From assembly GCA_026027325.1 (NCBI GenBank), contig JAMSLZ010000002.1, positions 1,302,001 to 1,366,000 on the forward strand: 64,000 nucleotides of DNA. The letters run 5' to 3'. Shown here piece after piece: positions 3,158 to 62,664 of the stretch. The notes under the pieces are model-generated. The model made no database searches, had not been told where the DNA came from, and saw nothing but the letters and a program-made list of their open reading frames with translations. Source of the stretch: Actinomucor elegans. Lineage: Eukaryota; Mucoromycota; Mucoromycetes; Mucorales; Mucoraceae. The translations under genes and the position numbers were made by a program. The number at the start of each line of letters is the position of its first letter. Position 1 is the first letter of the stretch.

Positions 3158-4039
3158 TTAATCCTTTAAAAACTTTTTCCATACGTTATACTCTCTATTT
3201 TTCTTACGCCATTGATATTCTTTTAAATACAATACTATATCTTTTTTATTTCTATTTCGTGGTATTATACTTTGCTTTAAGCCATTCCATGTGCCTTCAA
3301 TTGTATTTGTATGCACACCTGTATTTGGATCTTTAAAATGCTTTGAATGATTTACAGTTAAATGTTTGTATCCTATATTTTTCAAGTTATTATACCCTTT
3401 CCATAAATCCGTATATATTGTTGTACCTTTTTTTACATATCTTTTTATAATTAAATCAATATTATCAACATTTCTTTCTTCAATGGGTAATAAAAACATT
3501 TTTTTGTTTTCATTTTTTATTTTATTTTTTAGCATACTTCTTTCGATACCACCAATTACCCAAGCACCTTCTACCTTATGCCCCTTATTATATTTTCTTT
3601 TTGCAATTTTACTTTCATCGATTTCTACAATTTTATTTCTACCTCCAATTTTAATATTTCTGTTACCTAACAATTGTTTATTTTTCAAGTATTTTCTGAA
3701 TATTTTATTGTATGATGACACTGTATTTTTGCTAATTTGCAAACTTGATGCTATAAAGGAAGAAGGTGCTTTTCCAAGAAAAAGATATAATATGTGTAAT
3801 TGAGTATTTAAAGGTAAAGTTAAATTATTAAAAATTGTTCCTTTCAATGGTGATATTGCTTTCCTACATTTATAATATCTACAAACATATAATTTTTTAT
3901 TTAAGTTTAATTTAGTTTCATGTTCACATTTATTACACTTTATATGTTTATTAACGTAATCATTACTAATTAAATATAATAGTGCTTCTTTTTCATCGTC
4001 GAATATTTTTTTTAAAGATTTATATGGTTCTATAAACAT
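3158..4039 (-). CDS. Merlin / IS1016-family DDE transposase
   Basis: This 293-residue protein starts at MFIEPYKSL; upstream in-frame codons belong to the terminal repeat, and the relative at 38470 starts at the equivalent Met. An N-terminal zinc ribbon is visible (CNKC, then CRYYKC). The DDE core follows: Asp in VEIDESKIAKRKYNKGHK, Asp in TIYTDLWKGY, and Glu in NTIEGTWNGLKQ. Length and motifs fit IS1595/IS1016-like transposases, which cut and paste their element through the terminal repeats. The frame has no stop, so it may be functional. It has no homology to its Tc1 surroundings. Confidence 0.92.
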   Translation of the reverse strand: MFIEPYKSLKKIFDDEKEALLYLISNDYVNKHIKCNKCEHETKLNLNKKLYVCRYYKCRKAISPLKGTIFNNLTLPLNTQLHILYLFLGKAPSSFIASSLQISKNTVSSYNKIFRKYLKNKQLLGNRNIKIGGRNKIVEIDESKIAKRKYNKGHKVEGAWVIGGIERSMLKNKIKNENKKMFLLPIEERNVDNIDLIIKRYVKKGTTIYTDLWKGYNNLKNIGYKHLTVNHSKHFKDPNTGVHTNTIEGTWNGLKQSIIPRNRNKKDIVLYLKEYQWRKKNREYNVWKKFLKD

Positions 4040-4676
4040 CTGCAATTTTATTAAATCCTTTTTATTTTTAATTTTAATTTGTAAAAAAAATTCAATTTTT
4101 TCATATAACAATAAAATTTGTGGTAGTAGGAGTTTCAATATGGACCTGAGAGTTCCTTTGGGATACATCCAAAAAAAAGACCATTTTACAAGCAAAATCA
4201 CCCCATGGATCGGTTAAAATGGGAAAAACAACACCGTGACTGGACAGTAGACGACTGGAAGAAGGTTATATTCTCTGATGAAACCAAAATAAACACGTGA
4301 GTGTCCGACATAAATGGTCGTTTTTTCTTAATAGCTGAAACTAAATTAAGCTGTCTCATTAGATTTCGTAGTTGTCGCTTGCCAATAAAACAGCCTAAGC
4401 TCAACAATCATCATCGAGCATCTCGCAAAGAGCGTAAGCTACCACATCGGACTTTGAACCGAAGAACTATCTTAGCAGTATTGCTTATGGGAGAAGGTCT
4501 TCTACAGGGAGGTCACTCGTAATCAGGGTTCAACTGTGCTTTCATTCGATTGATTGTCCATTTGGAAACTCCAGTTTGCTAGGCAGCTTCATTAGTGACT
4601 GCGCCTTAAAAAATGAGTGCTCTAATGGAGTTTAAAACTTGTCAGAAGGAATTTGATAGGGCATCTTCAAATATAT

Positions 4677-5078
4677 GAGCTACATTACATATCATTAATA
4701 ATTAATATATATATTATAATTATTTTCATATTATTAAATTAAAATTATATAGCTTTCTTTATTTATCAAGTTGTAAGTTGCTAAAAAACTTACGGCGTGC
4801 TTTTTAATCAATTTTAAAAGAAAAAAATTGTCGCACAACAGGGTTTCGATCTGGTGTGAAATATTATGAAAAAAAAAAGTTTAATTGTATTGAAAAGTAA
4901 TATAAAAGTTTAATCTTTATAAGTTTTGCATAATTATTGCAATTTCTTATTTTTACGTTAATTACCAAACTTTCAAAAATTACAATAAAAAAGTGTTAAA
5001 CAAAAAAAAATATAATTACAAAAAACACTATTTAATTTAAAAACTAATTTTTATTTTTTTTTATTTTTAACGTTGCTC
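4677..5078 (+). repeat. Left 402-bp terminal module of composite 1
   Basis: This is an AT-rich noncoding module with its own short inverted ends (GAGCTACATTA...TAACGTTGCTC). It appears identical, in direct orientation, to 6714-7115. The last base is followed directly by TTA, the reverse complement of the transposase stop codon. It looks like a nonautonomous (MITE-like) unit used as an element end. Confidence 0.85.
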
Positions 5079-6530
5079 TTAGACATTGATAGAATCCCAA
5101 TAATTCTTTAGAATATCTTTTGTTTGAAAGTCACTTTCTTTAATCCAACTGTTTACTTGTTTTTTATAATTTCTCCATTTTACCTCATATTCATATTCAT
5201 TATTTATTTTTCTATGTTGTATTATATATTGTATCTCATATACATTTTTATCAGTACTAGTATTATTATCATCATTATCAATTTGCATTTTATTTTTAGT
5301 TAAGCTGATTTTAAAATTATTATCAGATAAAAGTTTATTTAGAAGATCATCCTGTAAACTTTTCATATTCATTATATTTTCTTTTTTATATACCGCCTTT
5401 ATTGATTTAGTTTCGATATTAAAATCCTTAATAGTATCAAAAAAATCAAAATCTTTTTCCATCCATAGTTTATAATAAGATTTTTCTTCTATATTATTAT
5501 TTTCTACAAAGTTTTTGATATTAAATAAAACTAATGCTAATTTAATCTGAATGTTATATGTTTTTTCTTTTGTAATTCTTGCATTGGCTTTGTAGCTAAA
5601 TCTTTTGAATATATTTGAAAATTTTGCAAAAAAAGTTTCAATGGTACTTCTATATGATCCTAATTGTTTATTAAAATTTAATTCATCAACATCTAAATCA
5701 ATATTTTTTTCTTTTTTTATTGGAAAACAAAAGTTATTTTCTGTAATATGTAATCCTACATTATTATATTTTTTTAAAATTTCATCTAATACATTTTCAT
5801 ACAATCCATCATAGCATAAACAATCTGTTAGTTTAAAAAATTTCATTAAATTTATATTATTAATAAACATATTATCGTCATTATTAAATTTACACGGTAA
5901 TGATTCTGAAACATAGATGATATATCCTGCTGAATCTATAATAAATTGGGTGTTTAATGCATTTTTCTTTAATTTATAAGAATATAAATCTTTTTTATTT
6001 AAATCAATATCTTCAATTACTATTCTATTATGTCTTCCATCTAAAAGTAATGTACAATGTTCAAAATTTTTAGGATTGTATAATTTACTATATAATAATC
6101 TAGTAATGCTGTTGCTAAAACAATAAAACATCGTATTATTAACCCAATTTTCTAAAAAATCTATATTATCAATAAAAACAGATTTATAAATTCTATAAAA
6201 AGAATCATTCTCATCATAAATTTTCATATCATTAATGGAACAACCATCTACTAATAATTTTAAAATCAAAATTCCTTTTTCTACATTATATACTGGTGAT
6301 GGCATTTTAATTTTACTACAAATTTCTGTTAAAAATACAAATATAGGAATTGCACCTAATAGTTCATATAATTCTTTTTTTATATTTTGAATGTTAATAA
6401 AATTTCCTATTTTACTTCTATGATATTGTTTTTCAATATTAGATTTATATGTATTATCTAAAAATTTCCAATAATTTGTTTTAATCTCTTCATATTCATT
6501 TTCTAATAGTTCCTCTATTTCAATTGTCAT
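5079..6530 (-). CDS. Chromodomain-fused DDE transposase (Harbinger-like), 483 aa
   Basis: The catalytic core reads LLLDGRHNR (Asp about 164), then FIIDSAGYIIYVSESLPC, YDGLYEN (Asp about 241) and GSYRSTIETFF (Glu about 298). That DD(56)E layout resembles PIF/Harbinger or DDE_Tnp_4 enzymes. The C-terminus (about 431-480) is a chromodomain: YEIQYIIQHR, EVKWRNY and SWIKESDF. The three aromatic-cage positions (Tyr, Trp, Tyr), which bind methyl-lysine in HP1-type domains, are kept. The chromodomain probably steers insertion to methylated histone H3 chromatin, as proposed for chromoviruses. The TAA stop is the very triplet at the module junction. No stops interrupt it. A homologue is at 22282-23685. 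Confidence 0.85.
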   Translation of the reverse strand: MTIEIEELLENEYEEIKTNYWKFLDNTYKSNIEKQYHRSKIGNFINIQNIKKELYELLGAIPIFVFLTEICSKIKMPSPVYNVEKGILILKLLVDGCSINDMKIYDENDSFYRIYKSVFIDNIDFLENWVNNTMFYCFSNSITRLLYSKLYNPKNFEHCTLLLDGRHNRIVIEDIDLNKKDLYSYKLKKNALNTQFIIDSAGYIIYVSESLPCKFNNDDNMFINNINLMKFFKLTDCLCYDGLYENVLDEILKKYNNVGLHITENNFCFPIKKEKNIDLDVDELNFNKQLGSYRSTIETFFAKFSNIFKRFSYKANARITKEKTYNIQIKLALVLFNIKNFVENNNIEEKSYYKLWMEKDFDFFDTIKDFNIETKSIKAVYKKENIMNMKSLQDDLLNKLLSDNNFKISLTKNKMQIDNDDNNTSTDKNVYEIQYIIQHRKINNEYEYEVKWRNYKKQVNSWIKESDFQTKDILKNYWDSINV

Positions 6531-6713
6531 AAGATGTTCTTATTTTTATTTATATAATAATTCAATTTTTTAGAAAAAAGTAATTGAGTTTGAATTAATG
6601 TTACAGAAATGATTATAATTATAATTATTTTAATATTAAACATTCAAACATTTGGCAAAAAAAAAATAAAAATTGATACTATGAATCAAAAACAAAGAGC
6701 AATTTTTATATAA

Positions 6714-7115
6714 GAGCTACATTACATATCATTAATAATTAATATATATATTATAATTATTTTCATATTATTAAATTAAAATTATATAGCTTTCTTTATT
6801 TATCAAGTTGTAAGTTGCTAAAAAACTTACGGCGTGCTTTTTAATCAATTTTAAAAGAAAAAAATTGTCGCACAACAGGGTTTCGATCTGGTGTGAAATA
6901 TTATGAAAAAAAAAAGTTTAATTGTATTGAAAAGTAATATAAAAGTTTAATCTTTATAAGTTTTGCATAATTATTGCAATTTCTTATTTTTACGTTAATT
7001 ACCAAACTTTCAAAAATTACAATAAAAAAGTGTTAAACAAAAAAAAATATAATTACAAAAAACACTATTTAATTTAAAAACTAATTTTTATTTTTTTTTA
7101 TTTTTAACGTTGCTC
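6714..7115 (+). repeat. Right 402-bp terminal module of composite 1
   Basis: This appears identical to 4677-5078 and lies in the same direction. It is preceded by TAA (6711-6713) and followed by the outer duplication TAT. The stretch 6531-6713, between the transposase start and this module, is AT-rich leader and presumably holds the promoter; no motif was identified. Confidence 0.85.
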
Positions 7116-7639
7116 TATGAAGTCCCTTAAAGAGGTTGATAAAATGGTAAAAAAGGATCGAAATAATGTCGTTCTTTTTATAGCTTTGACATCACTAACG
7201 TCATAAATTATCATAATCATGGAAAAAATGAAGCTATAATATGTAGAATTTCGACTACATTGCTATTGTCGGAAACTTTGATATTTTTACCTAACTTAAA
7301 AATCTAATTATCAGTTATGACGTTGAAATGACGTAAACAAACAAACTTAAAGGCTTATAGGGGTATCACAATCAAATTTGTAAATAGCTATAAAGTTGTT
7401 TGAAAAGGTTAGCATCATTTTTCATGAAGATATCCCCGAATAAAGTTTTGTGCACCAGTTATTTCCACCACTGTACCTGCTTTTATCTTAATTTTACCGC
7501 AGTATATACAAAGACCTCGGATGCAGAATTATATTGTTTGTACAAGGCAGTTGTTGAGATATATTTGTTAATGGAGTACATTATGATGATGATTATGTTT
7601 TAAGACGGAACTTATTATGTGCAAGATCTTAGTTCAGCA

Positions 7640-7717
7640 CACTCTTTATTATTCTAAGACACATTTGATATTTATACTCATTAAAAAGTTTGCACACAAT
7701 GACCGTGTGTACCTGAC
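7640..7717 (-). repeat. LTR5 fragment
   Basis: It matches the last half of the LTR at 48875-49028 (CTCTTTATTATTCTAAG through GTGTACCTGACA) with several changes. It is a decayed remnant left of the LTR3 insertion. 7476-7639 holds nothing recognised. Confidence 0.6.
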
Positions 7718-7722
7718 ATCTA

Positions 7723-8586
7723 TGTTATATCGAATATAATAAAGACTGTAAAAATAACCAGACTGATAAAACGAATTGATTTATTAAAGCATTAAAATGA
7801 TGAGCTATTTATACAAAATTGAAGTTCGGAGGATTTAACTTGATATTATAGACGATTGAGTTAGTCAAAGACTGCGCTCATGGAGTTAACAAGGATTTAT
7901 AGTAATCCTGTTATATCCGGTGCTAAAGACGAAGGATATAATAATAAAAGAATAGACAGTAAATGGAATCAGCTATCCTGATAGTAAAAGTTATTCTAAT
8001 GTTTATTCACAATTCAAAATCAAGTCTTCTTTATATACATTTCATCAGAGCTTAATAGTATAGCATTCAATCTATCAGCACGCATGGCCGTACAACGGAG
8101 TCCAATCCCAGCAGCCACTAACAAGCCTTTCAACCACGCATTGTTGTAATTGTATAACCCACGCGTTATTCGATATTCAGGTCTTATCTTGAGATACACT
8201 CGATACTACTCGATAGTATTGATGCCGCGTGTTTCTTGTAAGGATTATTGGCTAATAGTTCTAAGGATGACACATAGCTTGTATTTATGCAGGCCTCGTT
8301 AATCTGATTGGGTTATCAGATAGAGTCCGTGTATGACATAAATGAACAGTTGATTCCTTACTATTATGTCGATACAAGATAGTAGGTGGAATACAACAAA
8401 TCCATTCTAGTACGACTTTATATTCGGTGATATATAGTTTATGAAGGTTAGTTTCACTAAGCATTGATTTCCATATATATCTCTTAACCGACGTTACAAA
8501 GCTGTCAAAGCACAAGCTGAGTATAAGCATTGTCGAACATTGACCTGATTGGTGACGGACACTGAACAAGTCATGTATTTACAACA
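7723..8586 (+). repeat. Solo LTR, family LTR3, interrupted by LTR4
   Basis: It begins TGTTATATCGAATATAATAAAG and ends TTTACAACA. The 5-bp duplication ATCTA is at 7718-7722; its partner is reconstituted across the LTR5 insertion point (base 8587 plus 8746-8749). Other copies are 35151-35497 and 37729-38092. LTR4 is nested at 7909-8398. Confidence 0.85.
7909..8398 (-). repeat. Solo LTR, family LTR4 (the Ty3-1 LTR)
   Basis: This is the reverse complement of the Ty3-1 LTRs at 15400 and 24466, about 490 bp, running TGTTATATCCGGTGC...GGAATACAACA. The 5-bp duplication AATCC is at 7904-7908 and 8399-8403, inside LTR3. It shows that the Ty3-1 family transposed after the LTR3 insertion. Confidence 0.92.
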
Positions 8587-8587
8587 A

Positions 8588-8741
8588 TGTCGTGTGCAGA
8601 GTTATATATTTTTAAAGTAGATTGAAGTAAGTTTATACAAAAGATTATATATGGGATAAAAGGATGTCTTTTATTGTTTTCCATTTCATTTGATATTTAT
8701 AATTGATTGAAGGTAACACACAAGTCTGTGTGTTCCTGACA
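8588..8741 (-). repeat. Solo LTR, family LTR5 (154 bp)
   Basis: It begins TGTCGTGTGCAGAG and ends GTGTTCCTGACA. It is the reverse complement of the Ty3-2 LTR, with a 4-bp duplication ACAA (8584-8587 and 8742-8745). It lies 66 bp beyond the 3' end of the tRNA-Thr gene, in the same transcriptional orientation as the tRNA. Confidence 0.9.
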
Positions 8742-8745
8742 ACAA

Positions 8746-8778
8746 TCTACACTAAAATATACATCTCTGTTCACGACA
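8746..8778 (+). repeat. Old LTR5 end fragment
   Basis: ACTAAAATATACATCTCTG...CACGACA resembles the 3' terminus of LTR5 (...AACTCTGCACACGACA). A near-identical fragment sits at 49029-49057 beside the other minus-strand tRNA. It ends 29 bp from the tRNA. Confidence 0.5.
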
Positions 8779-8807
8779 AAATAAAAACATCAATTGATGT
8801 AAAAATT

Positions 8808-8879
8808 GCCTCCTACTGGAATCGAACCAGTGACCTTCTGCTTACTAGGCAGACGCTCTGCCAACTGAGCCAAGAAGGC
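8808..8879 (-). tRNA. tRNA-Thr (anticodon AGT)
   Basis: The reverse strand folds as a 72-nt cloverleaf without CCA. The acceptor stem pairs GCCTTCT with AGGAGGC (one wobble). The D-arm includes TGGCTCAGTTGGCAGAGC, and the T-arm includes GGTTCGATTCC. The anticodon stem pairs TCTGC with GCAGA around loop CTAGTAA, giving anticodon AGT (8844-8846) for Thr. No intron is seen. Confidence 0.95.
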
Positions 8880-9406
8880 GCTCTTCTTTTGTCAATTACG
8901 GTGGTTGAGAGAGATAGCCTTTTTTGAAGCAATAGCTACACTACAAATAATTTGATTCTCAGCTACGAATTAAGAACAAAGACTGTACAGAATTCTTCCA
9001 AGTTCTTCTCTGCTAATTTTTCTTTTAGTATTATATATTGTTTTTTATTAGTAACTAATGCTTTTTTTTATATTTATATCATTAGAAACAATATATAATT
9101 ATATTTATTGTTTAAAAAAGCAACTTTTTATAACAAAATATATTGTTTTAATGATTGTCAATATTTCATACCTAATTTTTTTCTAAGTTATTTCATATAC
9201 CGACATACCTCCTCCAATAAAAACGGTATATATTATCAAGTATTTACTTGAACTTTTTTTTCGAATTTTTGCAAGTCTTTCAACCCCAGAAGACCAATCA
9301 GTGTTTGAGATCAAGGTAGGTAATTGATTAGACGTTCTAGTAAATAAATATGTTTTTAATAAGATAATTCTTTTATTCATAAATACTTGAAGAATATATA
9401 TATATA
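8880..9406. other. Intergenic, AT-rich, nothing recognised
   Basis: No supported gene was found. A 65-codon minus-strand ORF at 9183-9380 has no recognisable features. The region ends in a TA run at 9396-9406, into which element D1 inserted. Confidence 0.6.
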
Positions 9407-11038
9407 CAGTGACTTACAATACTGTCCGCATGTTTTGCAATTTTAACTTCACATTATCATTCCTCACTCGATAATGGCTGCAAAAATGTAAAAATAATAT
9501 TATTTGAAAGCCCAATAAAATCACTACAATAGGTTGAAATCTCAGATCATATGACTTTCCTAATATAGAGTATTAATCGTTTAAAAAAAGGAACATCATG
9601 CGGACAGTATTGTGAGCAGGGGTTCACAAAATTTGTTTATTGATAAATCTGCTTTAATAATCGGTCCAGCGGCCTTTCGCTTTGATGACAGCTTCACAGC
9701 GTAAAGGCATACTATCAATAACATTCAAACATTCTTCTTTGGTAATTTTGTGGTACCATACGTCTGTAACACGTTCAAAAAGCTCTTGCATGCCAGAAGG
9801 CGGAGTATCATAGTCATTTAGTCGTCTTTTGACTAAGGCCCACATATGCTCGATTGGATTAAGATCAGGAGATTGAGATGGCCAGTCCATTACTACGTAT
9901 TTTTGTTTTTTGAGGTAGTCTTTGACCGTACCAGAAGTATGTTTAGGGTCGTTATCCTGTTGAAAGATGATCTGATTGGTTCTTAATCCTGTTTCTTGGC
10001 AGACCAACTTTACCGTTTTCCTCAGTTCGTCACGCAGAATCGTCCCATAAAGCTCCTTGTCCATTATGGAATCGATCTTACACATCCATCCAACTCCAAT
10101 GCAAGATATGCAACTCCAAATCATGATGCTTCCTCCACCATGCTTTTTTGTTTGCTTTATGTGGCGGTCTTGTAGTGGCTCATTGTCTCGAATCCAAGCC
10201 CAAGTACGACCATCAGAGCAGAAGCGGTTTATCTTAGTCTCATCAGACCAAATAACCCTTCTCCAATCGGCTATCGTATAGTCCTCATACTTTTTTGCCC
10301 AAGCTAATCGCTCACGTATGTTTTTGGCATTGAGGTTTGGCTTCGTTTCCTTTTCCATGGATCCTAAGCCTTCGGCCTTGAGTGCCCTACGCACGGTCTG
10401 CGGTGAAACAGATAAACCAAAGTCAAATGACAATTGTTTTTGAATACTTATTACGTTTCCCTGGCCTCCTCTTGTAATCTGTCGCACGCAATATCTTTTA
10501 TCCGCTTCTTTAAGCTTTAAAGGTTTACCTCCTTTTGGCTTCTTTCGATTAGGTAAGTGTTCCGCGGCGACTTTATTGACTGTCGTGCGCCCAACATTGG
10601 TGCGATAGGCAACCTGGCGAATGGAATAGCTTGCTTGGAGGCCACCAATGATATTTTGTCGTGTGGCTTCAGATATGGGTCTCATCACTTATGAAATAAA
10701 TTAAGAATGTATAATAAGATTGTGATTTAATGAATTAATGAGAGTATGCGCGATGAAAGATAACTTTGTTTTTGAGTCAATTTCCATCATGTTCAACTTA
10801 TGGGTTGAATTTCGCATCTAAAAATTGACTCACAATACTGTCCGCATGATGTTCCTTTTTTTAAACGATTAATACTCTATATTAGGAAAGTCATATGATC
10901 TGAGGTTTCAATTAATTGTAATGATTTTGTTGGGCTTTCAAATGATATTATTTTTACATTTTTGCAGCCATTATCGAGCGAGTAATGATAATGTGAAGCT
11001 AAAATTGCAAAACATGCGGACAGTATTGTAAGTCACTG
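9407..11038 (-). mobile_element. Tc1-D1, intact Tc1-like element
   Basis: It is 1,632 bp with TA on both sides (9405-9406 and 11039-11040), inserted in a TA-repeat. Terminal inverted repeats of about 210 bp start CAGTGACTTACAATACTG. Each repeat contains the motif ACAATACTGTCCGCATG at the outer end and its reverse complement at the inner end (about 9594-9616 and 10828-10850). It encodes one uninterrupted transposase and is probably autonomous. A decayed relative (D2) is at 44856-46981. Confidence 0.95.
9654..10688 (-). CDS. Tc1-like DD34E transposase, 344 aa
   Basis: The N-terminus carries a helix-turn-helix (about 1-50, with YSIRQVAYRTNVGRTTVNKV) and a second one (about 60-110, including SPQTVRRALKAEGLG). 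The catalytic Asp residues are in VIWSDETKINRF (149) and FQQDNDPKHTS (245). The Glu is in DLNPIEHMW (280), giving exactly 34 residues between the second Asp and the Glu, as in Tc1. The GGGS loop and WTDY tail are typical. Length equals the family norm and there is no stop or frameshift. It cuts and pastes its element at TA sites. Confidence 0.96.
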   Translation of the reverse strand: MMRPISEATRQNIIGGLQASYSIRQVAYRTNVGRTTVNKVAAEHLPNRKKPKGGKPLKLKEADKRYCVRQITRGGQGNVISIQKQLSFDFGLSVSPQTVRRALKAEGLGSMEKETKPNLNAKNIRERLAWAKKYEDYTIADWRRVIWSDETKINRFCSDGRTWAWIRDNEPLQDRHIKQTKKHGGGSIMIWSCISCIGVGWMCKIDSIMDKELYGTILRDELRKTVKLVCQETGLRTNQIIFQQDNDPKHTSGTVKDYLKKQKYVVMDWPSQSPDLNPIEHMWALVKRRLNDYDTPPSGMQELFERVTDVWYHKITKEECLNVIDSMPLRCEAVIKAKGRWTDY

Positions 11039-11389
11039 TATATATATATTATTTTTAAGTGCTGCGGATTTATACACAAGATGAGTTGATTAATAAACTG
11101 AAAATATAAAGTGATAGACTCTGTATTGCTACGCATCGAATTATACCAGAAGTGTAAAGACTGATGATAAGAGATCTATCTTGCTGTGCACTTTTTCATG
11201 GAAATTATATCTAATGAAGACTTGTAATTATGAAATTACGAATGGATATACAATCATTATAATACGTGTTCTGAGAAAAATATCAGCATTTAAGTGTAAG
11301 CATACAATTATATTTTATTCTTCTATCATATGCTGACACTGTTTCGTGATGGAATGCCAAATTACTAAACAGATCTCTACATAGTGGGC

Positions 11390-14300
11390 CAATTAAACCA
11401 AGCTAGAATCCAGTTCAATGCCCAACAAAAAAGTCCACCCATTCAAGAAGAAGATAGTAAGTATTTTGAATTAATTAGATACATATATATGTACTTGTAC
11501 TCATTTTGATCCATAACAGCAGCCGATTACAGCGAATATTTTGACATGTACGACGATGAATTTGATGCTGGGACGAGTGAGCAAGAATGATCACCAGAGG
11601 AATTTCCAGGAGAATTACCGGAAGAGTTTTACAATGCATGTAAGTCTAGCTATCGTAATGAGCATCCACCTTCTTGTATACTTACCTATAACTGCTTCAG
11701 CTGATTTTTTCCCTAGATCTCCTCTTTCTTTTGTCTTGTATATTATGGTCGTTATGCTTCAAGTCAATAACTATCTAACCGTTGAATGCGCTGAAATGAT
11801 CATGGTTTTCCTTAATGTTACTCTCAATCTCGTTGGTGATCCATACCGCTTCCCAAAAAAAATCGTTACGTTGACAAGAAGAGATAAGTTCCAACAGCTT
11901 TTCTGTGATGGTATCACCAATTATACCGTATGTCCTGAATGCCATACATTATATCCTCCTACATCCTCTACGCAGCATTGTAACCGTATTTCGAAAATTT
12001 ACTCAGATAGAACAACAACTGTCTGCAATGAAGCCCTATTTGAACCATCCTTATCTAATTGCCTTGTTCCAAGAAAGGTGTATCCGTTCAATTCTCTTAT
12101 TTCAACCCTTAGAAAGATGTTCAAGCGTCCAGGCTTTGTCCAAAATATATCCAAATGGCGTTCTCGTATACCAATGAACGGCTATCTATGATGGATCCGT
12201 CTTTAAACAATTCAAATTGGGTGCAAGATCTCCTATATTTACCTCCGAGTCTGTCTTCAATTTGATGCTTACATTGAACGTAGATTGGTACACTGTTGAT
12301 AAGACTTCTGGTGGTTCAGCTGGTAGCATCTATTTAACTATCCAAAACCTTCCAAAAGACAGTGGTCGCGATCTTAAGGAGAACATGATACTTGTAGGTA
12401 TTATTCCAGGCCCTACAGAACCTCACACAACAGAATTAAATCATTATTTGGATCCTCTCGTTGATGAACTTTTGGTGTTAATGAATGGTGTTTCAATGGA
12501 TGTGTGCATGCCAGATGGAGAATTACAGCCGCAAAATGTCAAAGCTGCTCTTTCAATGGTATGCTGCGATTTGCCTGCTGCTAAAAAAACCTCTGGTTTT
12601 GTCTCGTTTAATGCGGTCTGCGGTTGTCATCGCTGTAAAAACAAGTTTGGCAATCTGCGTGGTGAAAACAAGAGAGATTGGTCTGGTTGGAACGATGATG
12701 ACTGGATCCCAAGAACTATGCAAGAAAATAAAGTAGAAGCAAATGCTTGGAAGTTGAAAAGCGACGCTGGTCAATCTGTGAAAGCGTTAGAAGATGAAAA
12801 TGGCACACGCTATAGTTCTCTTCATCGCTTACCATATTTTGATGCGCCTGGATTTACAGTTATCGAGCCGATGCACAACCTCTATCTCGGCACTGTCAAA
12901 CACTTGATGGGTTTATGGCTTTCCCGAGATACCAGAAACAGTTGGGTGAATGCTTCAACAGCTAAACCATTGATTGACAAATACGACCTCAAAAAAATGC
13001 AGGAATTTCTTCTAATCAAGAAACATCGTTTCAACGAACGTTGTGATGGTCGTTCATTAGTCAAAAAGATCACAATTGGTACTGGTTTCTCGTACTTGAA
13101 AGCTGCTGAATGGAAGGCTTGGAGTGTGCTTGCTCGTTTAGTCTTAAAACAGGTGTTGGATACAGCTAAATTCGAAAACTTCATGCTTTTTGCTGACGCC
13201 TTGCGTATCTTGGAAGCTAATGTTATCAGTTTGGCTGACATTGATGCATGCCATATCAAATTGCGAGAATTCTGTATTGGCTTTGAGCATTTATATGGTA
13301 AGCGGAATGTGCAGTCAAATATGCATTTCCACTTACATCTCGCCGAATGCATGCGGATGTATGGTCCCATTTCGTGTTTTTGGGCGTTCAACTTTGAACG
13401 TTACAATATGTATGTGAAAAGAATACGCACAAACCACAAAAAAGGTTTTGAAAAAACGTTCATGGTTCAAATGCTTCGAACTATCCATGCCAATGACTAT
13501 TTCAATCAATTTTCCAGAATAAAAACGTAGACTTAAAAAATCTGTTTTTTTTTCGAGCGACCAATAAACACAAAGTCATCAGTTAGTTTTGAATTTAAAA
13601 TAAAATTTTGTTCCTTTCTTACTTTTACATTATAAAATGAACAACAATCAAGAAATCAAGAGACTATTCTTACACATTAACAACGCAACTGAAGATAATA
13701 CTCACAAATTTATAGCAGTAGAACCGTCGATCGATTTATTTCAGTGTATGAAATACTCTGAATTGCCAAAGAGTGGAGATGAACGTTGTGGTGGTTTCGA
13801 ATCGTTGCCGCAGTTCAGCTTGGAATCTATTAGCTGGTCACGTAGTCCCATTACCAGCTTAAACAAGACAGTCGAAAAAGGACAGACAATGGATGAATAT
13901 AGTTGCCTTGTCGAATACTACCGCGATCTTTACGGGTTTTTGTTAAAACGAGACGATGACATGATCGAAGACAATGAACTCGTAGTCAAGAACTTCATCA
14001 AAAAGTTCAAGCGCATTCAAATTCTTGGATATATATACTATTCAGAAGAATTTGCCGAAGGCCAGAATACATATTTCTGTGCTTATCACTACAACAGCGA
14101 TGGCGTGTTGGACCTTCGACCTGGACAGATTCAATTCTTTTTCCAACATACCCAAGAAGTCGAGAGTGCTGATGAAAATGAAGGAAATGGATTATTGGAT
14201 CATATGTTTGCGTTTGTACGATGGTTCAAATATCCAAATCCTGAGACAGAAGACCTGTCAGCATATAATGGCCACCACGCATCCTGCTGGCAAAATAGTT

Positions 14301-18900: not shown

Positions 18901-20867
18901 ATTACTTTCGTTCTGCGATTCCTGGATACAGTCGTTTAGCAGCTCCACTTGATGAGTTACGCAGTAGTAAATCACTTGCAGCTATATGGTCTGACAAACA
19001 CACGCAAGCTTTTCGCAACTTGCAAGCAGCCTTGTCGTCTGCTCTCGTGTTATCTCCTCCTGACTTTCGTTACCGTTTCCATGTCGCAACTGACGCGTCT
19101 AAAACTGGTATTGGTGGAGTCATTTACTATATCAAAAATGATACGGTTCATTATGTGACTATGGCTTCTCGCAAGCTATCTACCTCCGAAATGAATTACA
19201 GTACAACAAAACGAGAATTACTTGCTATTGTCTACATGTTGACTAAGTATCATAAATGGTTATTCGGTATTAAATTCACTTTGCATACTGATCATAAAAG
19301 CCTTATCTTTTTACATGATCAAAGCACCCCCAACACCTTGATGCTGACTTGGTGGGACACTATTTTTTCTTTTACGTTCGATGTTGTTCATATTCCTGGA
19401 ATTAAGAACATCATTCCCGATACTCTTAGTCGACTGTTTTCTGATGACGAATCCAACAGTCTGGAGGAGGGTGGAAATATTGTTAACCATCAAAACATAT
19501 TTGAGAACCATAAGAAAAGATATAATACCACGCGTTCTGAACGTAAACTGCAAATACGGTATCCTACAGATAAAAACAAGTCACGCAAAAGAATACTATC
19601 TGCTAGAAACGGGACTGAAAATAAAACAAAAGGAAATTACGCCTTTTCATCTTTCCCAACAGTTTCTACAAACTACGATGATAATACCAATACATCATCC
19701 AACCACATTGACTCATCCAATACTACATCGTTCGATAGTTACAATAAGACACCTCTTATTTCTCGCGCAATGCAATATGCTGATTATATGACACCACCTG
19801 AAAAGGATCGCGTTTCTATTATTATGAAAGCACACTTGCTTGGCCATTTTGGCGTAAATGCAATTGAGAAAACTATTCACAATGATTACAAATTACATTG
19901 GACTAATTTGCGACAAGACATTCAAAGAGTTATCAATGATTGTGAAGCTTGCCAAGCACATGGCATCTATCGAGTTGGTTATCACCCTCCTAGAAGCGTG
20001 TTGCCTGACGGTGTCTTCGATCATATCTGTATAGATCTCGGTGATTTCAATACTACATCATCTCGTGGTAATAACTTTATGTTAGTTGTAGTAGATTACT
20101 TTAGTCGATTTACAATTCTACGTGCACTCCCTGACAAGAGTAGTTACAGTGTAGCAAAAGAATTACTTCACATATGCTGTCAGTTCGGATTCCCTCGGAT
20201 CATCACGCATGACAATGGTATGGAATTTGTGAATGAAGTGGTTAAACAATTTATACAAATGAGTGGCATGGATAGACGGCTTAGCTTGCCCTATACTCCT
20301 ACTGGAAACAGTGTAGTAGAAAGCTATGTTGGCATCTGTAAACGTAGTATCATCAAAGCGTTAACTGCTAATGCTGTTGAACCTGAATCTTGGGATTTGT
20401 ATTTAGACGTGATCCAATACTCTGTCAATTGTCAGTATTCGCGATTGCATAAATCTCGTCCTTTTGCGGTTATGTTCAATAGACAGCCTAATGACTTTAT
20501 CGACTACACGGATGTAAAACCTACCATCAATATCGAGAAATCTGATAGTAAACTCATTGATAAGAAGCTGAAATATGTCAAAGATGTCATTATTCCTTCT
20601 ATTGCTAAACGCATTAAAGAGACACAATTAAACGATCATTTAAAATTCCAAAAGAATAACAAGATCATTGAAACAAAGTACCCTCTTAATTCTAAAGTTA
20701 TGATCGTGAACGTACTCAAATCATCTAAACTGCAACCCAGATGGTTAGGTCCTTTTATCATTAAAGGCTACGGAGAACATGTTTGTGCATTTAAGCATAA
20801 AAATTTAACAATTTACATAGATTTCATGAATTATATAAATGTTAGGGTTAATTTTAAAATCACGTGA
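15948..20867 (+). CDS. Ty3-1 Gag-Pol polyprotein, 3' end displaced by an insertion
   Basis: A single frame encodes Gag, then a Cys/His motif (about 390-404, YCSFHKVNTHDTANC), an aspartic protease (LDTGC, about 573) and reverse transcriptase (YIDDICIS, about 898). RNase H follows (ATDASKTGIGG, about 1045). The integrase has a zinc domain (HLLGHFG...CEACQ, about 1295-1336) and catalytic residues in CIDLGDFN, THDNGMEF and VVESYVG. The GPF module PRWLGPFIIKGY follows. From 20772 the frame runs into the inserted composite element (GEHVCAFKH...) and stops at 20867. The true C-terminus continues at 23839. The polyprotein would copy and integrate the element. Confidence 0.95.
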   Translation: MSSPAASIHSGEPTVSVAQANLPSLDTSMEESSGSAASFVDRQVQAEESLRSMQDTINQLTIELTILAARLSSPLSGDNLDDFQAEYLQKDSVLKAVIATKALIEKSNADSVKYARAVVDPKAPIKVSSVCPNNMPYLQWVGEVHEPSAHIFIDAAACLTRFQNVMYAHRLDFDTNYERLVLSQMSQAQLTWYEVEFHQNARAAGIASPTWLMFKNEFLSRFGTTVDEDRAACARSLVDIKLAKGESLFAFIDRFNDLRRRAVDQCLPASILVDKFLHALPTEFADKVITSRLSLPKDQKSNVDVVMRLARELYNDLYKEKGLPGVSASVSSASGSSSRVSNIPSAANYVHRESDKSRHAVPSSLGVASSAMSIGKVAKRSSSTASTGKYCSFHKVNTHDTANCKAISRASSVIANQQPLAAASGSLPSSSQVPINNRTCHSFGAPGWTRQHRCNTAVRNDPNQGPTHRFGMMSIAGAASRAFGSSGAIASSSASLAPASNLSTVAPAVTPFNSEVSSSSSAVPVQEHMNIDEHAAVQAQLCKSNIFSNLPKQRSNAILLPIVVQNIRVYAYLDTGCTFSICSPRFFRSLGVGFTPSSGTVQLGHVNTQQPRIGYTSLNILYNKIQLKHKFELFDFYTEDDSAPILFGLDIMPLLNIAITGLVSTWDDHTGPALPSPIDPEDIKPNNSPFGTADERQLMQSKLKPLLAANANIDLKNTYCNLPGAIVQLETQPGKVAYRKPYPIPIAYKQSVLDQIETWKNEGVIEIAQSHTGFNSPLLCVSKKNADGIYSFKKPRVVADVRELNSILISTDKYNIPLISDIHERLSNAKIITSIDIHSCFTSFLVDPAHKSKLNFMCPFTNLQYTFRKVCFGVSFIANLVQRTLTNLFSDLPYVTIYIDDICISTNDSLAHHTDCVAEVIRRLTNANLQLSPEKIVLAQKSIHILGWSIVDGKLMPDPRKVSNVHTWPLPQTGKDIMRYLGYFNYFRSAIPGYSRLAAPLDELRSSKSLAAIWSDKHTQAFRNLQAALSSALVLSPPDFRYRFHVATDASKTGIGGVIYYIKNDTVHYVTMASRKLSTSEMNYSTTKRELLAIVYMLTKYHKWLFGIKFTLHTDHKSLIFLHDQSTPNTLMLTWWDTIFSFTFDVVHIPGIKNIIPDTLSRLFSDDESNSLEEGGNIVNHQNIFENHKKRYNTTRSERKLQIRYPTDKNKSRKRILSARNGTENKTKGNYAFSSFPTVSTNYDDNTNTSSNHIDSSNTTSFDSYNKTPLISRAMQYADYMTPPEKDRVSIIMKAHLLGHFGVNAIEKTIHNDYKLHWTNLRQDIQRVINDCEACQAHGIYRVGYHPPRSVLPDGVFDHICIDLGDFNTTSSRGNNFMLVVVDYFSRFTILRALPDKSSYSVAKELLHICCQFGFPRIITHDNGMEFVNEVVKQFIQMSGMDRRLSLPYTPTGNSVVESYVGICKRSIIKALTANAVEPESWDLYLDVIQYSVNCQYSRLHKSRPFAVMFNRQPNDFIDYTDVKPTINIEKSDSKLIDKKLKYVKDVIIPSIAKRIKETQLNDHLKFQKNNKIIETKYPLNSKVMIVNVLKSSKLQPRWLGPFIIKGYGEHVCAFKHKNLTIYIDFMNYINVRVNFKIT

Positions 20868-21989
20868 TTGTTAAAATGCCCCTAAATTTATGAATTTCAT
20901 TTTTTTCAGCTTTTTTTTAGAATACCAAGACATTTTTAGAAATCACATGATATGATAGCTATAAAACATACTATATAACAACAATGTCATCCAATTAATA
21001 TATGTATAAAAACTAGATTACTCTTATATTTCCAATTTTAATTTATTTAACATAAATTGAAAAACATACATTAAAATAAATATGCCTGTAATAACATTAA
21101 CAGAATATGATAAAAATGCTTTTTTAATAGAGAAATTTAAGGATGACAAATACAATGTATTGTATAATGGTCATAATTTCATAATTGATACAAAGATTGC
21201 ATTTGAAGATAGTCAATTATGGATTGAAAAAAAACCATATAAAATAAAGATAGATTTAGACATTACTAGTAATGAACATATTGATTTTGAAAGTTTTATA
21301 AATGTTTTAATAAATGAAATAAATATGTATTGTAGAAGAAATAAAATTATGAATGTAGAATTATTAAATCCTTTAATAGAATCGAATTCAAAAGAAAATA
21401 CAAAAATTATGTATTTGGTATTAACTAATATATCCAAATTTAAAATATAGAAAATAATCAAAATTTAAGTATTGATGATATTAAAAATAAATGTTTTTCT
21501 ATTTATCCATCATTATTTTCACCATCTATAAATATTAGTAATGGTAAGATATATATAAATTTTACAATTAAAACAGGTTTTATTAAAATAAATAACGAGA
21601 TAAAAGATGAGGATATAAATTATGATGATGCTATTAATATATTTAATAAATTAAATATTAAATAAAGTCAATATATATTTTAATATAAATAATTTTTTGA
21701 ATCCTTTTATTTAATTAATAATAAAATACGAGACTCTTAATATAATACATCCCTATCCATTAAACATATAATGATAGTAAAATGAATTAGTATGTTTTAT
21801 AGCTATCATATCATGTGATTTCTAAAAATGTCTTGGTATTCTAAAAAAAAGCTGAAAAAAATGAAATTCATAAATTTAGGGGCATTTTAACAATCACGTG
21901 ATTTTAAAATTAACCCTAACATTTATATAATTCATGAAATCTATGTAAATTGTTAAATTTTTATGCTTAAATGCACAAACATGTTCTCC
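20772..21989 (+). mobile_element. Module L of composite 2, 1,218 bp with 202-bp inverted repeats
   Basis: The repeats at 20772-20973 and 21788-21989 are inverted copies beginning GGAGAACATGTTTGTGCATT and look identical or nearly so. They contain TCACGTGATT. The interior encodes the unknown ORF at 21082. The module contains no transposase, so it would depend on the enzyme of module R. Confidence 0.85.
21082..21666 (+). pseudogene. Unknown ORF in module L (122 aa plus a frameshifted tail)
   Basis: It starts MPVITLTEYDKNAFLIEKF and is open for 122 codons to a TAG at 21448-21450. Just before this stop, another frame continues with NIENNQNLSIDDIKNKCFS and reads to a stop at about 21666. One frameshift therefore joins them into an ancestral protein of about 190 residues. 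It is rich in Ile, Asn and Lys with predicted alternating strands and helices. No family was recognised. It sits between the long inverted repeats of module L, and its role as an accessory protein of the composite is inferred from position only. Confidence 0.55.
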
Positions 21990-22029
21990 TTAATAAGTAT
22001 TACAGTAAATTTGACTGTTATTATTATAA
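21990..22029. repeat. 40-bp near-palindromic spacer between modules
   Basis: It starts TTAATAAG and ends TTATTATAA. Large parts of its two halves are reverse complements, for example AACAGT/ACTGTT-type blocks around a central AAATTT. It could be a junction hairpin or the stub of a deleted core, since composite 1 has its gene in the corresponding place. Confidence 0.55.
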
Positions 22030-23835
22030 GGAAAATATACATGCTATTCATATACCTATGTATCTTTAAAAAATATTCGTAAAATTTATAATCATATATA
22101 TATATATAAAACAAAAAAAAATTACAAAATCTTTTTTATTTTTTAAGTCATGTGACATCATGATACGTATCCCTTAAGTTTAAAGGTTATCTAACCCAGC
22201 ATGATATTCATCAATTATTTCTCTATCATTAAATGCTAAAATGAAATAAAAATTGAAAAAAACATATATAAAAAACATAAAATGGATAAACTTATATACG
22301 AAGAATTAAATAAAATAAAACATAGTTACTGGAATTTTTTAGATGAGGAATGGAAAATAAAAGAAGATGAGTATAAACATAGAACAGAACTAAAAGATGT
22401 AAAAAATATTGAAGAAATTAAGGTTGAATTACAAAACAAATTAGGCATAATACCTATATTTTTCTTTTTAAATAATATATTTGTAAATTATAAATATAAA
22501 ACTCCATATAGAGATATTGAAAAAGGATTACTAATAATATATCACTTAATTACAGGTAAAAGCATAAGAGAAATGAATGATTACATACCCTATTCATCAT
22601 TTCATGAAATATATAAAAGTTTCTGGGATGTAAACTTAAATGAGCTACATAAAACATGTAATAAACTATTAGAAAATATGTTTAGCACAATTTTATTAAG
22701 AATATATTATGCTAATAGACTTAATCCTGAGCATTTTAAGCATGTTACTTTACTTTTGGATGGACATGATAGTAGAGTTAACTATACAGATTTGAAAATT
22801 AAAAGTAAAGATATGTATTCATATAAATTTAAAAAATCAGGATTTAGAACCCAAGTAATAATTGATGTTAATGAAATAGCTATTTATGTATCAGATAGTT
22901 TACCATGTAAAAAATATAATGATGGTAAAATGTTTTTAGCAATGAAACTAGAAAATAAATTAAATGAAAATGATTGTATAGCAGTTGATGGAGGTTATAA
23001 TTTATTTATAGAAGACTTCTTAGAGAATTGTAGTAAATATGGAAATGATAAAATCAATAACGATAATTTTATATTTCCATTTAGAAAAAAAAAAGGAATT
23101 AAGTTAAGTGATAATGAAATTGAATTCAATAATACTTTTGGAAGTTTTAGAAGCATCATTGAAAATAAATTTGGACGATTAGGTGATAAATTCCAAAGAT
23201 TTGATAATAGTAATAAAGTTCTTAAAATTGATAATATAAGAATATATAATTTACAGTTAAAAATGGCATTATTATTAAGTAACATCCAAAAATTTGTTGA
23301 GCTTCAAAATATTCCAATTAAAGATTATTATGGATTATGGATACAAGATAAATTTAATTATCCAAGTAACAAAAATCATAATGAAGATGCATTTACTGAA
23401 ACTTTTGAATATTGTAGAGTCATTAATATGAGAAATAAACAAAACTCATTTATTAATGATATGCTAAATAAAAGTGAAATGATAATTGACGAAAATATAG
23501 AATACATAGAAAATGATTCATATGAAATAGAAAAAATATTAAATCATAGAAAATATAAAAAAAGAACAAAATATTTTATTAAATGGAAAAATTATGATGA
23601 TAGCTACAATAGTTGGATATGGGAAGACGCATTTAATGATAGAGAAATAATTGATGAATATCATGCTGGGTTAGATAACCTTTAAACTTAAGGGATACGT
23701 ATCATGATGTCACATGACTTAAAAAATAAAAAAGATTTTGTAATTTTTTTTTGTTTTATATATATATATATGATTATAAATTTTACGAATATTTTTTAAA
23801 GATACATAGGTATATGAATAGCATGTATATTTTCC
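22030..23835 (+). mobile_element. Module R of composite 2, 1,806 bp with 207-bp inverted repeats
   Basis: The repeats 22030-22236 and 23629-23835 appear to be perfect inverted copies beginning GGAAAATATACATGC, including equal-length A-runs and TA-runs. The right repeat begins exactly at codon 450 of the transposase and so contains the last 18 codons and the stop. The left repeat carries the same 57 bases in reverse, in front of the gene. Confidence 0.9.
22282..23685 (+). CDS. Chromodomain-fused DDE transposase (Harbinger-like), 467 aa
   Basis: The catalytic core has LLLDGHDSR (Asp 160), TQVIIDVNEIAIYVSDSLPC, AVDGGYNL (Asp 236) and GSFRSIIENKFGRL (Glu 294), that is DD(57)E as in the homologue at 5079. 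A C-terminal chromodomain spans about 414-463 with YEIEKILNHR, FIKWKNY and SWIWEDAF. The aromatic-cage Tyr, Trp and Tyr are present. The N-terminal 150 residues show no known DNA-binding domain. The frame is intact. The enzyme probably moves both modules, and the chromodomain probably reads a histone mark; both statements are inference from family knowledge. The last 18 residues are encoded inside the terminal repeat. Confidence 0.87.
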   Translation: MDKLIYEELNKIKHSYWNFLDEEWKIKEDEYKHRTELKDVKNIEEIKVELQNKLGIIPIFFFLNNIFVNYKYKTPYRDIEKGLLIIYHLITGKSIREMNDYIPYSSFHEIYKSFWDVNLNELHKTCNKLLENMFSTILLRIYYANRLNPEHFKHVTLLLDGHDSRVNYTDLKIKSKDMYSYKFKKSGFRTQVIIDVNEIAIYVSDSLPCKKYNDGKMFLAMKLENKLNENDCIAVDGGYNLFIEDFLENCSKYGNDKINNDNFIFPFRKKKGIKLSDNEIEFNNTFGSFRSIIENKFGRLGDKFQRFDNSNKVLKIDNIRIYNLQLKMALLLSNIQKFVELQNIPIKDYYGLWIQDKFNYPSNKNHNEDAFTETFEYCRVINMRNKQNSFINDMLNKSEMIIDENIEYIENDSYEIEKILNHRKYKKRTKYFIKWKNYDDSYNSWIWEDAFNDREIIDEYHAGLDNL

Positions 23836-23838
23836 TAC

Positions 23839-35497: not shown

Positions 35498-37107
35498 TAG
35501 GTATTCTTCGCTTGTTGATAGTATTAGGCAGGGATCTACCTGTTGTGCTTGCAATGGTTGCTTGACGACGTGTCCAATAGTCTTGAATAGGTTTCTTCGA
35601 ATCGAAGGTATCAACCGTCTGCCAAGTATTGTATTTTTCTTGGTCATCGTATCCAACCCAATGCACGTAATACTCGTATTCACCGTCTGGCAAGAGTCGA
35701 TGGTTTACAATTGCTTGTACCTCATAATGTTTCTCGTTAAGTTCGTTTTCAGATCGTTGATCTCCTGATTGAATCAGTCTTATCTGATGCGTAGGTACAT
35801 CACGAGATAATAAAGAGCCAGTGAGATCTTCTAAAATGTAACTACCATGCTTGGTGTAGCCTTTAATGATAAAAGGACCTAACCATCTGGGTTGCAGTTT
35901 AGATGATTTGAGTACGTTCACGATCATAACTTTAGAATTAAGAGGGTACTTTGTTTCAACGATCTTGTTATTCTTTTGGAATTTTAAATGATCGTTTAAT
36001 TGTGTCTCTTTAATGCGTTGTTTAGCAATAGAAGGAATAATGACATCTTTGACATATTTCAGCTTCTTATCAATGAGTTTACTATCAGATTTCTCGATAT
36101 TGATGGTAGGTTTTACATCCGTGTATTCGATAAAGTCATTAGGCTGTCTATTGAACATAACCGCAAAAGGACGAGATTTATGCAATCGCGAATACTGACA
36201 ATTGACAGAGTATTGGATCACGTCTAAATACAAATCCCAAGATTCAGGTTCAACAGCATTAGCAGTTAACGCTTTGATGATACTACGTTTACAGATGCCA
36301 ACATAGCTTTCTACTACACTGTTTCCAGTAGGAGTATAGGGCAAGCTAAGCCGTCTATCCATGCCACTCATTTGTATAAATTGTTTAACCACTTCATTCA
36401 CAAATTCCATACCATTGTCATGCGTGATGATCCGAGGGAATCCGAACTGACAACATATGTGAAGTAATTCTTTTGCTACACTGTAACTACTCTTGTCAGG
36501 GAGTGCACGTAGAATTGTAAATCGACTAAAGTAATCTACTACAACTAACATAAAGTTATTACCACGAGATGATGTAGTATTGAAATCACCGAGATCTATA
36601 CAGATATGATCGAAGACACCGTCAGGCAACACGCTTCTAGGAGGGTGATAACCAACTCGATAGATACCATGTGCTTGGCAAGCTTCACAATCATTGATAA
36701 CTCTTTGAATGTCTTGTCGCAAATTAGTCCAATGTAATTTGTAATCATTGTGAATAGTTTTCTCAATTGCATTTACGCCAAAATGGCCAAGCAAGTGTGC
36801 TTTCATAATAATAGAAACGCGATCCTTTTCAGGTGGTGTCATATAATCAGCATATTGCATTGCGCGAGAAATAAGAGGTGTCTTATTGTAACTATCGAAC
36901 GATGTAGTATTGGATGAGTCAATGTGGTTGGATGATGTATTGGTATTATCATCGTAGTTTGTAGAAACTGTTGGGAAAGATGAAAAGGCGTAATTTCCTT
37001 TTGTTTTATTTTCAGTCCCCTTTCTAGCAGATAGTATTCTTTTGCGTGACTTGTTTTTATCTGTAGGATACCGTATTTGCAGTTTACGTTCAGAACGCGT
37101 GGTATTA
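35498..37107 (-). pseudogene. Ty3-1-family pol fragment (integrase and chromodomain)
   Basis: The minus strand encodes, nearly identically to Ty3-1, the region from TTRSERKLQIRY through the integrase zinc domain, catalytic residues (CIDLGDFN, THDNGMEF, VVESYVG), GPF module and chromodomain (HYEVQAIVNHRLL). It ends at KRRIP, where LTR3 starts. Tc1-B inserted at its other end. Because it is uninterrupted at the GYTKHG junction, it gives the empty site for composite 2. Both ends of the parent element are gone. Confidence 0.93.
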
Positions 37108-61275: not shown

Positions 61276-61277
61276 GT

Positions 61278-62165
61278 TTACTGAAAATCCCGCTTGTTGC
61301 GATGTTCCTCATCAAGACGTCGTATATCAGCCAAGCGTTGACGACAGTTACGTTTGATATGACCAGTACGTTGACAGTAGTAACACTGCTGCTTGTTATT
61401 GGCATTGTTATTATAGCGTCGATTGCTGTTACCATTATTGTAGTGTCTGCTGTTGCTTCTGCGTTGATCAATGACGTCGATATCCATGGGATCATCATGT
61501 AATGCTTGTTGTTGTTGAGGACTATTGCGACGAGTACCATAACTGTAACCTATTTCCTGTTGGGCACTTTCAAAAGAGAGCGCATCATGAATAGCTCCCT
61601 TGAGCGTATCAGCATCGAACTGTCTTATGTGTGCACGCATTTGCTTATCCGCCAAACCACGAATGAATTTATCTGAGGCTTCTTCATCTGTCATTCTAGG
61701 AATAGCCAACTTGATATCCATAAATTCATTAATATAATCCACCAGCGAGCCAGTTTGTCGTAAAACAGCAATTTTATCGCGAGCAATCCTGGTAACATTG
61801 TCCGGACGGAAGAATTCAGTGAGGGTAGCTTTCAGTTCGACCCACGTATCTGGAGCTTCGCCCATAGTTTCCAATGTTCGATACCAAACATCAGCGCGAT
61901 CCCGCAAAAGAGTCACAGCGAAAATACATTTCCTAGTGTCATCCCATTCATAAAAGTCACCATAACGTTCCACCGACTTGATCCATCCGTCAATGAGTAG
62001 AGCATCCCTAGCACCCGTATAGATATCAGGTTCCTTAATCCTTGCGGTTTGTCTGGCTCCATGTTCTTTGAGCGCCGCCGTAAAATCCTTGATAAAAGAG
62101 TTCATGTTTGCATTATTTGCATCTTGCGTTGCAAATTTCGAAGTTGTAGATTCACCAGCCATCAT
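61278..62165 (-). CDS. Ty3-4 Gag, 295 aa
   Basis: The capsid-like retrotransposon Gag region (about 40-200) includes DALLIDGWIKSVERYGDFYE, RIARDKIAVLRQTGSLVDYI and AIPRMTDEEASDKFIRGL. It is followed by an Asn/Arg-rich linker and a CCHC knuckle (CYYCQRTGHIKRNC, about 263-276). The frame stops at TAA, and Pol continues in the -1 frame, open across the stop. The start is the first Met of MMAGESTTSKF, 39 bases after the LTR. It assembles particles and binds RNA. Confidence 0.93.
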   Translation of the reverse strand: MMAGESTTSKFATQDANNANMNSFIKDFTAALKEHGARQTARIKEPDIYTGARDALLIDGWIKSVERYGDFYEWDDTRKCIFAVTLLRDRADVWYRTLETMGEAPDTWVELKATLTEFFRPDNVTRIARDKIAVLRQTGSLVDYINEFMDIKLAIPRMTDEEASDKFIRGLADKQMRAHIRQFDADTLKGAIHDALSFESAQQEIGYSYGTRRNSPQQQQALHDDPMDIDVIDQRRSNSRHYNNGNSNRRYNNNANNKQQCYYCQRTGHIKRNCRQRLADIRRLDEEHRNKRDFQ

Positions 62166-62203
62166 ATAAAAGTCTTGTTTCGTGCGTATCTGGTGCTACC
62201 AAA

Positions 62204-62660
62204 TGTAAAAGCCAATATTAGTCAACTCTCAGTGGTTACTAATATATTTCCAAATATAGACAATTATAACCAAAAGTAGAAACTGAGTTATAATTGATCC
62301 AATCAAAATAAGTATGAGTTTTAAGTGAAGAATTAATGATGTTTATTCAATGATGCTTTTGGGTATTTATATTCTTTTTCTATTGTATATACAAAGACAT
62401 ATGATCCAGTTAAATGGGTAATAATAATATATCATGACAATTATATACAAAGTGAGGTGACTTGCTTATGTGATTATATCTGCTTCTTTCTTTTGATATT
62501 TCGTCTGGTGATTGAAGTATTCGGCGTAAATCGCCTCTTCTTGGATTGTTTCTTACGTAACTGTATTTCAAGCTCGACCGGAACATCTTTCATTAGTTCA
62601 TCCATTGAAGAGGTAATACCAGAAGTTACTTGCTGAGGATTAATCACCGGAAGCTTGACA
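62204..62660 (-). repeat. Ty3-4 5' LTR (LTR6, 457 bp)
   Basis: It runs TGTAAAAGCCAATATT...GGAAGCTTGACA on the plus strand and lacks the MITE present in the 3' copy. The primer site lies at 62182-62202. Confidence 0.94.
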
Positions 62661-62664
62661 TTTT

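Follow-up and report, generated by a model that had tools for sequence, protein, structure and literature searches.

A probable heteromeric compound DNA transposon of a Harbinger-like clan in the fungus Actinomucor elegans

Introduction

A 64,000-nucleotide stretch of the genome of the mucoralean fungus Actinomucor elegans (assembly GCA_026027325.1, contig JAMSLZ010000002.1, positions 1,302,001 to 1,366,000; hereafter the window) raises the question of whether two different DNA modules, each enclosed in its own long inverted repeats and each carrying its own gene, can be transposed as a single unit. Each module looks able to move alone, and the arrangement is hence unusual. Compound transposons, among them Tn10 and Tn5, are best known from bacteria. 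An earlier examination of the window (the sequence-only reading) proposed that two inverted-repeat modules, joined by a near-palindrome, had inserted in one event as a bipartite element mobilised by a chromodomain transposase. We examined the structure and coding content of this element, its copies throughout one 36.5-Mb assembly of 27 contigs, and its relationship to other transposon families in the same genome and to transposons described elsewhere.

Results

Module L (20772..21989, plus strand) measures 1,218 bp in the window copy and 1,219 bp wherever else L is free of an insertion (10 copies). It is bounded by a perfect 202-bp inverted repeat, with the outer arm at 20772..20973 (plus strand; outermost end GGAGAACATG) and the inner arm at 21788..21989 (minus strand), next to which stands TTA. 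Module R (22030..23835, plus strand; 1,806 bp) is bounded by a perfect 207-bp inverted repeat, with the inner arm, preceded by TAA, at 22030..22236 (plus strand) and the outer arm at 23629..23835 (minus strand; outermost end, read inwards, GGAAAATATACATG). The modules are joined by an imperfectly palindromic 40-bp spacer (21990..22029), the palindromicity of which was equalled in only 5 of 2000 shuffles, and L, spacer and R together form a composite of 3,064 bp. The triplet TAC stands immediately to the left (20769..20771) and right (23836..23838) of the pair and is repeated only there; with TTA and TAA at the inner junctions, neither module shows a duplication of its own. When the two flanks were aligned separately, unjoined, to the relative within the window, the left 200-bp flank matched positions 36058-35856 on the minus strand (98.0%) and the right 200-bp flank matched 35858-35659 on the minus strand (99.5%); because these matches overlap by 3 bp on the relative, they define an empty site with a single TAC (35856..35858, minus strand). 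The sequence-only reading had described the long inverted repeats, the near-palindromic joint, the placement of TAC outside the pair, the TTA and TAA junctions and the uninterrupted relative in these same terms, and all of them held.

The window is otherwise rich in repeats (3158-13530, 39131-40465 and 58189-63853), with frames that match IS1595-like, Tc1/mariner-like (DDE_3) and tnp2-like transposases as well as retrotransposon gag and pol. A second chromodomain DDE_Tnp_4 element lies at approximately 4677-7115, with an open reading frame at 5079-6530 on the minus strand; its terminal direct repeats match each other over 409 bp (99.8%), and inspection by eye gave TAT as its duplication.

The transposase gene of module R (22282..23685, plus strand) encodes 467 amino acids, and its final 57 bp fall within the outer arm of R. 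The label "chromodomain transposase" given to it earlier proved apt, as the protein carries a DDE_Tnp_4 domain (residues 174-334, 22801..23283, plus strand; E 1.2e-9, 38.4 bits, cut-off 24.8) and a C-terminal Chromo domain (residues 414-461, 23521..23664, plus strand; E 1.3e-10, 41.5 bits, cut-off 25.1), both above the curated Pfam cut-offs. These two were the sole Pfam matches at E values up to 1, and no Kolobok transposase was among them. Residues D160, D236 and E294 are invariant among 14 aligned relatives and are presumably the catalytic residues. The best PDB matches of the chromodomain were HP1-type chromodomains (E 2.4e-6), and among named transposases the nearest to that of R comes from Mucor hiemalis (58% identity); no relatives turned up when viral contigs were scanned with an alignment of the transposases. 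A tree built from 20 transposases places the bipartite element beside P0003-P0005 (support 100/99), inside a wider group of nine that includes two other families of this genome, C and D (97/97). Because the end of the gene, with part of the chromodomain, falls inside the outer R arm, the arms themselves suggest that the outer one is the original and the inner one its copy.

Module L was said to hold an unknown gene, and it does encode a 194-aa protein with no domain above threshold. In the window copy (21082..21450, plus strand) a one-base deletion breaks the frame and leaves 122 aa; the 194-aa frame is open throughout in 11 of the 14 copies found in the assembly. A frame of 194 codons compares with a longest frame of 127 in 5000 simulated cores, and the gene ends short of the L arms. 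A protein database contains a 194-aa relative that differs at one residue; no other relative was found among 169 short-word candidates scored, a search in which distant relatives could be missed. Nothing exceeded threshold in Pfam, NCBIfam, PHROGs (where the protein had no match) or PDB, sequence profiles gave no Myb/SANT domain above cut-off, and a scan of viral contigs with the L protein found no relatives. Two sub-threshold candidates, ribosomal protein S19 (E 0.23 in Pfam, 0.055 in NCBIfam) and one PDB chain (E 0.79), are not believed.

The composite of L, spacer and R is present in 14 copies in the assembly: seven align end to end in a single alignment, three of the same orientation are interrupted by other insertions, and four have inverted cores, one of these being interrupted as well. 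A perfect 3-bp duplication stands outside the pair in all 14 (TAC in the window, followed for L001-L013 by AGA, ATA, AAT, ATT, ATA, ATT, GTA, ATT, ATT, GTA, AGT, ATT and TAA). The inner junctions are constant and the spacer is identical in every composite, and, with as many as 3 mismatches allowed, no other occurrence of the spacer was found in the assembly. Exact searches gave 28 occurrences of the terminal 25 bp of L and likewise 28 of the terminal 26 bp of R, always inside the 14 composites; allowing up to 3 mismatches revealed neither end outside them in the one assembly searched, from which it follows that the assembly yielded no solo module. The 300-bp flanks of the 14 sites are mutually unrelated apart from one 54-bp match. 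Outer duplications, a constant spacer and the absence of solo ends together identify the pair as the mobile unit. Insertion of the two modules as one unit, as first proposed, is thus borne out at 14 of 14 sites that repeat both the outer duplications and the inner junctions; the finding that would have spoken against it, namely modules present solely as independent insertions, did not emerge, there being 0 solo ends at up to 3 mismatches.

Four of the composites carry insertions. Those in L007 and L011 have ends GGGTGATTACC...GGATACATCC, belong to another type of DNA transposon and are flanked by 8-bp duplications read by eye (GAGTAATC and GAACATAT). In L008 and L009 the interrupting elements come from families H and G, and their duplications, also read by eye, are CTA and AAA.

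The copies differ little from one another. Alignments of 11 L modules and 13 R modules, from which copies with an insertion in the module concerned were left out, showed one base substitution, the remaining differences being one- or two-base indels; sequencing error may account for some of the short indels. Of the 14 copies, 9 retain a full-length transposase frame. Judged by the similarity of its copies, the composite family is young and recently active. Relative to the spacer, both cores are forward in 10 copies and both are inverted in four (L010-L013), with no copy showing a single inversion, and in either isomer the L and R genes have a common direction. This association between the orientations of the two cores has p = 0.001 if copies are assumed to be independent; however, copies inherit their orientation state, so that one double-inverted founder may explain the 10:4:0 distribution. 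Attempts to order the isomers by shared mutations failed, as the differences are almost all short indels.

The outermost ends of the composite resemble the ends of related families, and its two outer 9-mers, GGAGAACAT and GGAAAATAT, are identical at seven of their nine bases, an agreement reached by 125 of 20000 shuffled pairs for a length that was picked after inspection. Comparison of the whole arms of L and R gave a local score of 52, where simulations averaged 53 and 169 of 300 scored as high; a gapped comparison of the first 30 bases gave 12, where the simulated average was 13.4 and 1467 of 2000 scored as high. Both comparisons are at chance level, and no homology of the L arms to the R arms was found.

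At least 94 genomic matches came from a search with the transposase, in which 91 of 435 candidates were scored. Related families also make 3-bp duplications, which were seen at all examined loci of families C (2/2), D (2/2), G (3/3), H (5/5), K (2/2), N (3/3) and F (4/4, two of which share flanks) and at three of five loci of family B, where one of the other two is nested and one is without its left end. Terminal direct repeats of about 220-320 bp occur in six of the eight families compared (C, F, G, H, K and N). In these six families (L014-L016, L018-L020 and L028-L040) each repeat is itself bounded by short inverted ends, and in family G direct repeats also appear as lone units (40 of 101 candidates scored). 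In family B (L021-L024, L026) the terminal unit is 282 bp long and has inverted ends of 67-69 bp. L021, L026 and the nested L024 carry this unit inverted, whereas it is direct in L022 and L023; the occurrence of this unit in both orientations makes inversion of a core between perfect inverted arms plausible. Of 20 family B units sampled from 40 listed (65 candidates), 14 adjoin an interior, two do neither, and four stand alone with a 3-bp duplication (L043, L045, L047 and L058). Self-comparison of the examined related loci, in which the frames listed were those of the transposase, revealed no second bipartite family.

Discussion

The reading that we favour, and regard as very probable, is that the locus holds a fixed heteromeric compound DNA transposon of the Harbinger-like clan, which moves as one 3.06-kb unit by means of its outermost ends. 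Under this reading, the R transposase would bring together the outermost ends of L and of R, cut at both and insert the whole with a 3-bp stagger. The L and R genes would be driven from the arms, so that a core could work in either orientation, and the two isomers would have arisen by recombination between perfect inverted arms in a founder and then bred true. As a guess, the L protein helps as an accessory factor, in end binding or import, rather than being inert cargo; searches of Pfam, NCBIfam, PHROGs and PDB gave this role no support. A lead in its favour, by analogy, is that PIF/Harbinger elements are described as needing both ORF1 and TPase (PMC2836001).

Some observations count against this reading. 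The arms of L and R are unrelated, so that recognition of both by one transposase is putative. Moreover, solo modules would be expected, given that each module has two perfect ends, and none was found. A requirement for unlike ends, the youth of the family or the loss of solos would each suffice to account for their absence. The composite thus raises a directly testable question, namely why no module, although each has two perfect ends, was found by itself.

How the pair arose is less settled than how it moves. Joint mobility of two transposons, as the sequence-only reading had it, stands; the joining of two transposons as the origin of the pair is open to an alternative, in which one ordinary two-gene transposon, consisting of end L, the L gene, the transposase gene and end R, had each of its ends copied inward in inverted form. 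Such an element would have the same mobility as joined modules and would differ in origin. The position of the last 57 bp of the transposase gene, together with part of the chromodomain, in the outer R arm favours this origin, as do the failure to find L and R apart, the unlike ends of seven of the eight families compared (B excepted) and the normally two-gene constitution of PIF/Harbinger, with ORF1 and TPase (PMC2836001). Yet the inner copies end exactly at the terminal base and are flanked by TTA and TAA, like two separate insertions; a lone module with a gene entering its own repeat could equally predate a fusion; and the L gene stays outside the L arms. We consider inward copying possible but less likely than not.

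A further proposal would add to the favoured reading a rule of end choice, by which the transposition complex accepts only one L end together with one R end, the L protein perhaps reading one kind of end and the transposase the other. Modules would then be immobile alone, and the double inversion would result from an exchange of outer and inner end pairs in one event. The lack of solo modules in the assembly fits such a rule, and so do the 10:4 ratio of isomers with 0 single inversions (p = 0.001 if copies are independent) and the family B unit, which has ends alike and does occur alone with a 3-bp duplication (4 of 20 sampled). Copies are not independent, however, and one double-inverted founder yields the same counts, while in a family this young, with 14 copies, history may explain the lack of solos; we regard the rule as unlikely. 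If it were true, the two modules would be kept together as one obligate mobile unit, in which outer and inner end pairs exchange and both cores invert at once.

Two other readings have next to no probability. Chance neighbours, whether two independent insertions or a module nested in an older element, could have left the inner TTA and TAA as remnants of 3-bp duplications and may describe the birth of the first pair, but for the present copies this is refuted by the identical 40-bp spacer and outer duplications at all 14 sites. Segmental duplication of one pair, which near-identical copies, some on shared contigs, might suggest, is refuted by 300-bp flanks that are unrelated bar one 54-bp match and by a separate 3-bp duplication at every site.

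In its comparison with known systems, the compound transposon favoured here shares features with several and coincides with none of them. We take a DDE_Tnp_4-type transposase to be the link to PIF/Harbinger elements, the duplications of which are of the TWA type. The kinship proposed earlier holds for the transposase, which has a DDE_Tnp_4 domain above cut-off and invariant D160, D236 and E294, and for the 3-bp duplication (14 of 14); it does not extend to the TWA target, as TAA alone among the 14 duplications conforms, and no Myb-like second protein was recognised. The composite resembles PIF/Harbinger in its type of transposase, its 3-bp duplication and its two genes per unit (PMC2836001), and differs in that each gene is enclosed in its own inverted repeats of about 200 bp, duplications go beyond TWA and the second gene is not recognisably Myb-like.

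Like bacterial compound transposons, in which two insertion-sequence-like modules move as a unit by their outer ends (PMC9587614), the composite joins two modules into one mobile unit. It has a duplication confined to the outside of the pair and constant inner junctions at 14 sites, and its transposase is predicted to act on the outer ends. In the bacterial elements of the Tn10 and Tn5 type, modules are alike and able to move alone, whereas here the modules are unrelated, only a 40-bp spacer lies between them and no end was found outside composites at up to 3 mismatches in one assembly. In maize Ac/Ds macrotransposons, termini of neighbouring elements are used together and the intervening DNA moves too (PMC3260210, PMC4270019); the joint use of ends of two adjoining elements is the likeness, but those are hAT elements of one family, and ours is a pair that stays fixed across 14 sites and has repeats of unrelated sequence.

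A eukaryotic parallel is KolobokP (Kojima and Bao 2022, PMC9587614), the long terminal direct repeats of which, in its authors' account, set its composite-like plan apart from all other DNA transposons. As described there, it too is composite-like, with repeated units that have their own inverted ends, a transposase and a second small protein, and it moves as a whole with a small duplication. KolobokP belongs, in the same account, to the Kolobok superfamily of animals and has two like direct repeats around one interior, with solo repeats and multimers common. The composite has instead two modules that differ from each other and carry one gene apiece, two kinds of inverted arm without relation to one another, a transposase with DDE_Tnp_4 and Chromo in place of a Kolobok transposase, and no solo found. 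A matching arrangement was not found in the literature searched, mostly by title and with few subscription journals, which leaves its absence there unproven. The six direct-repeat families of this genome, by analogy, can be read as a KolobokP-like plan within a Harbinger-like fungal clan and may merit a report of their own; since these related families share a genome with the composite, a single organism would suffice for studying how composite transposons originate. Beside them, the bipartite element would represent a different plan in the same clan, in which modules with unrelated ends are kept together as a unit that appears to have been recently active.
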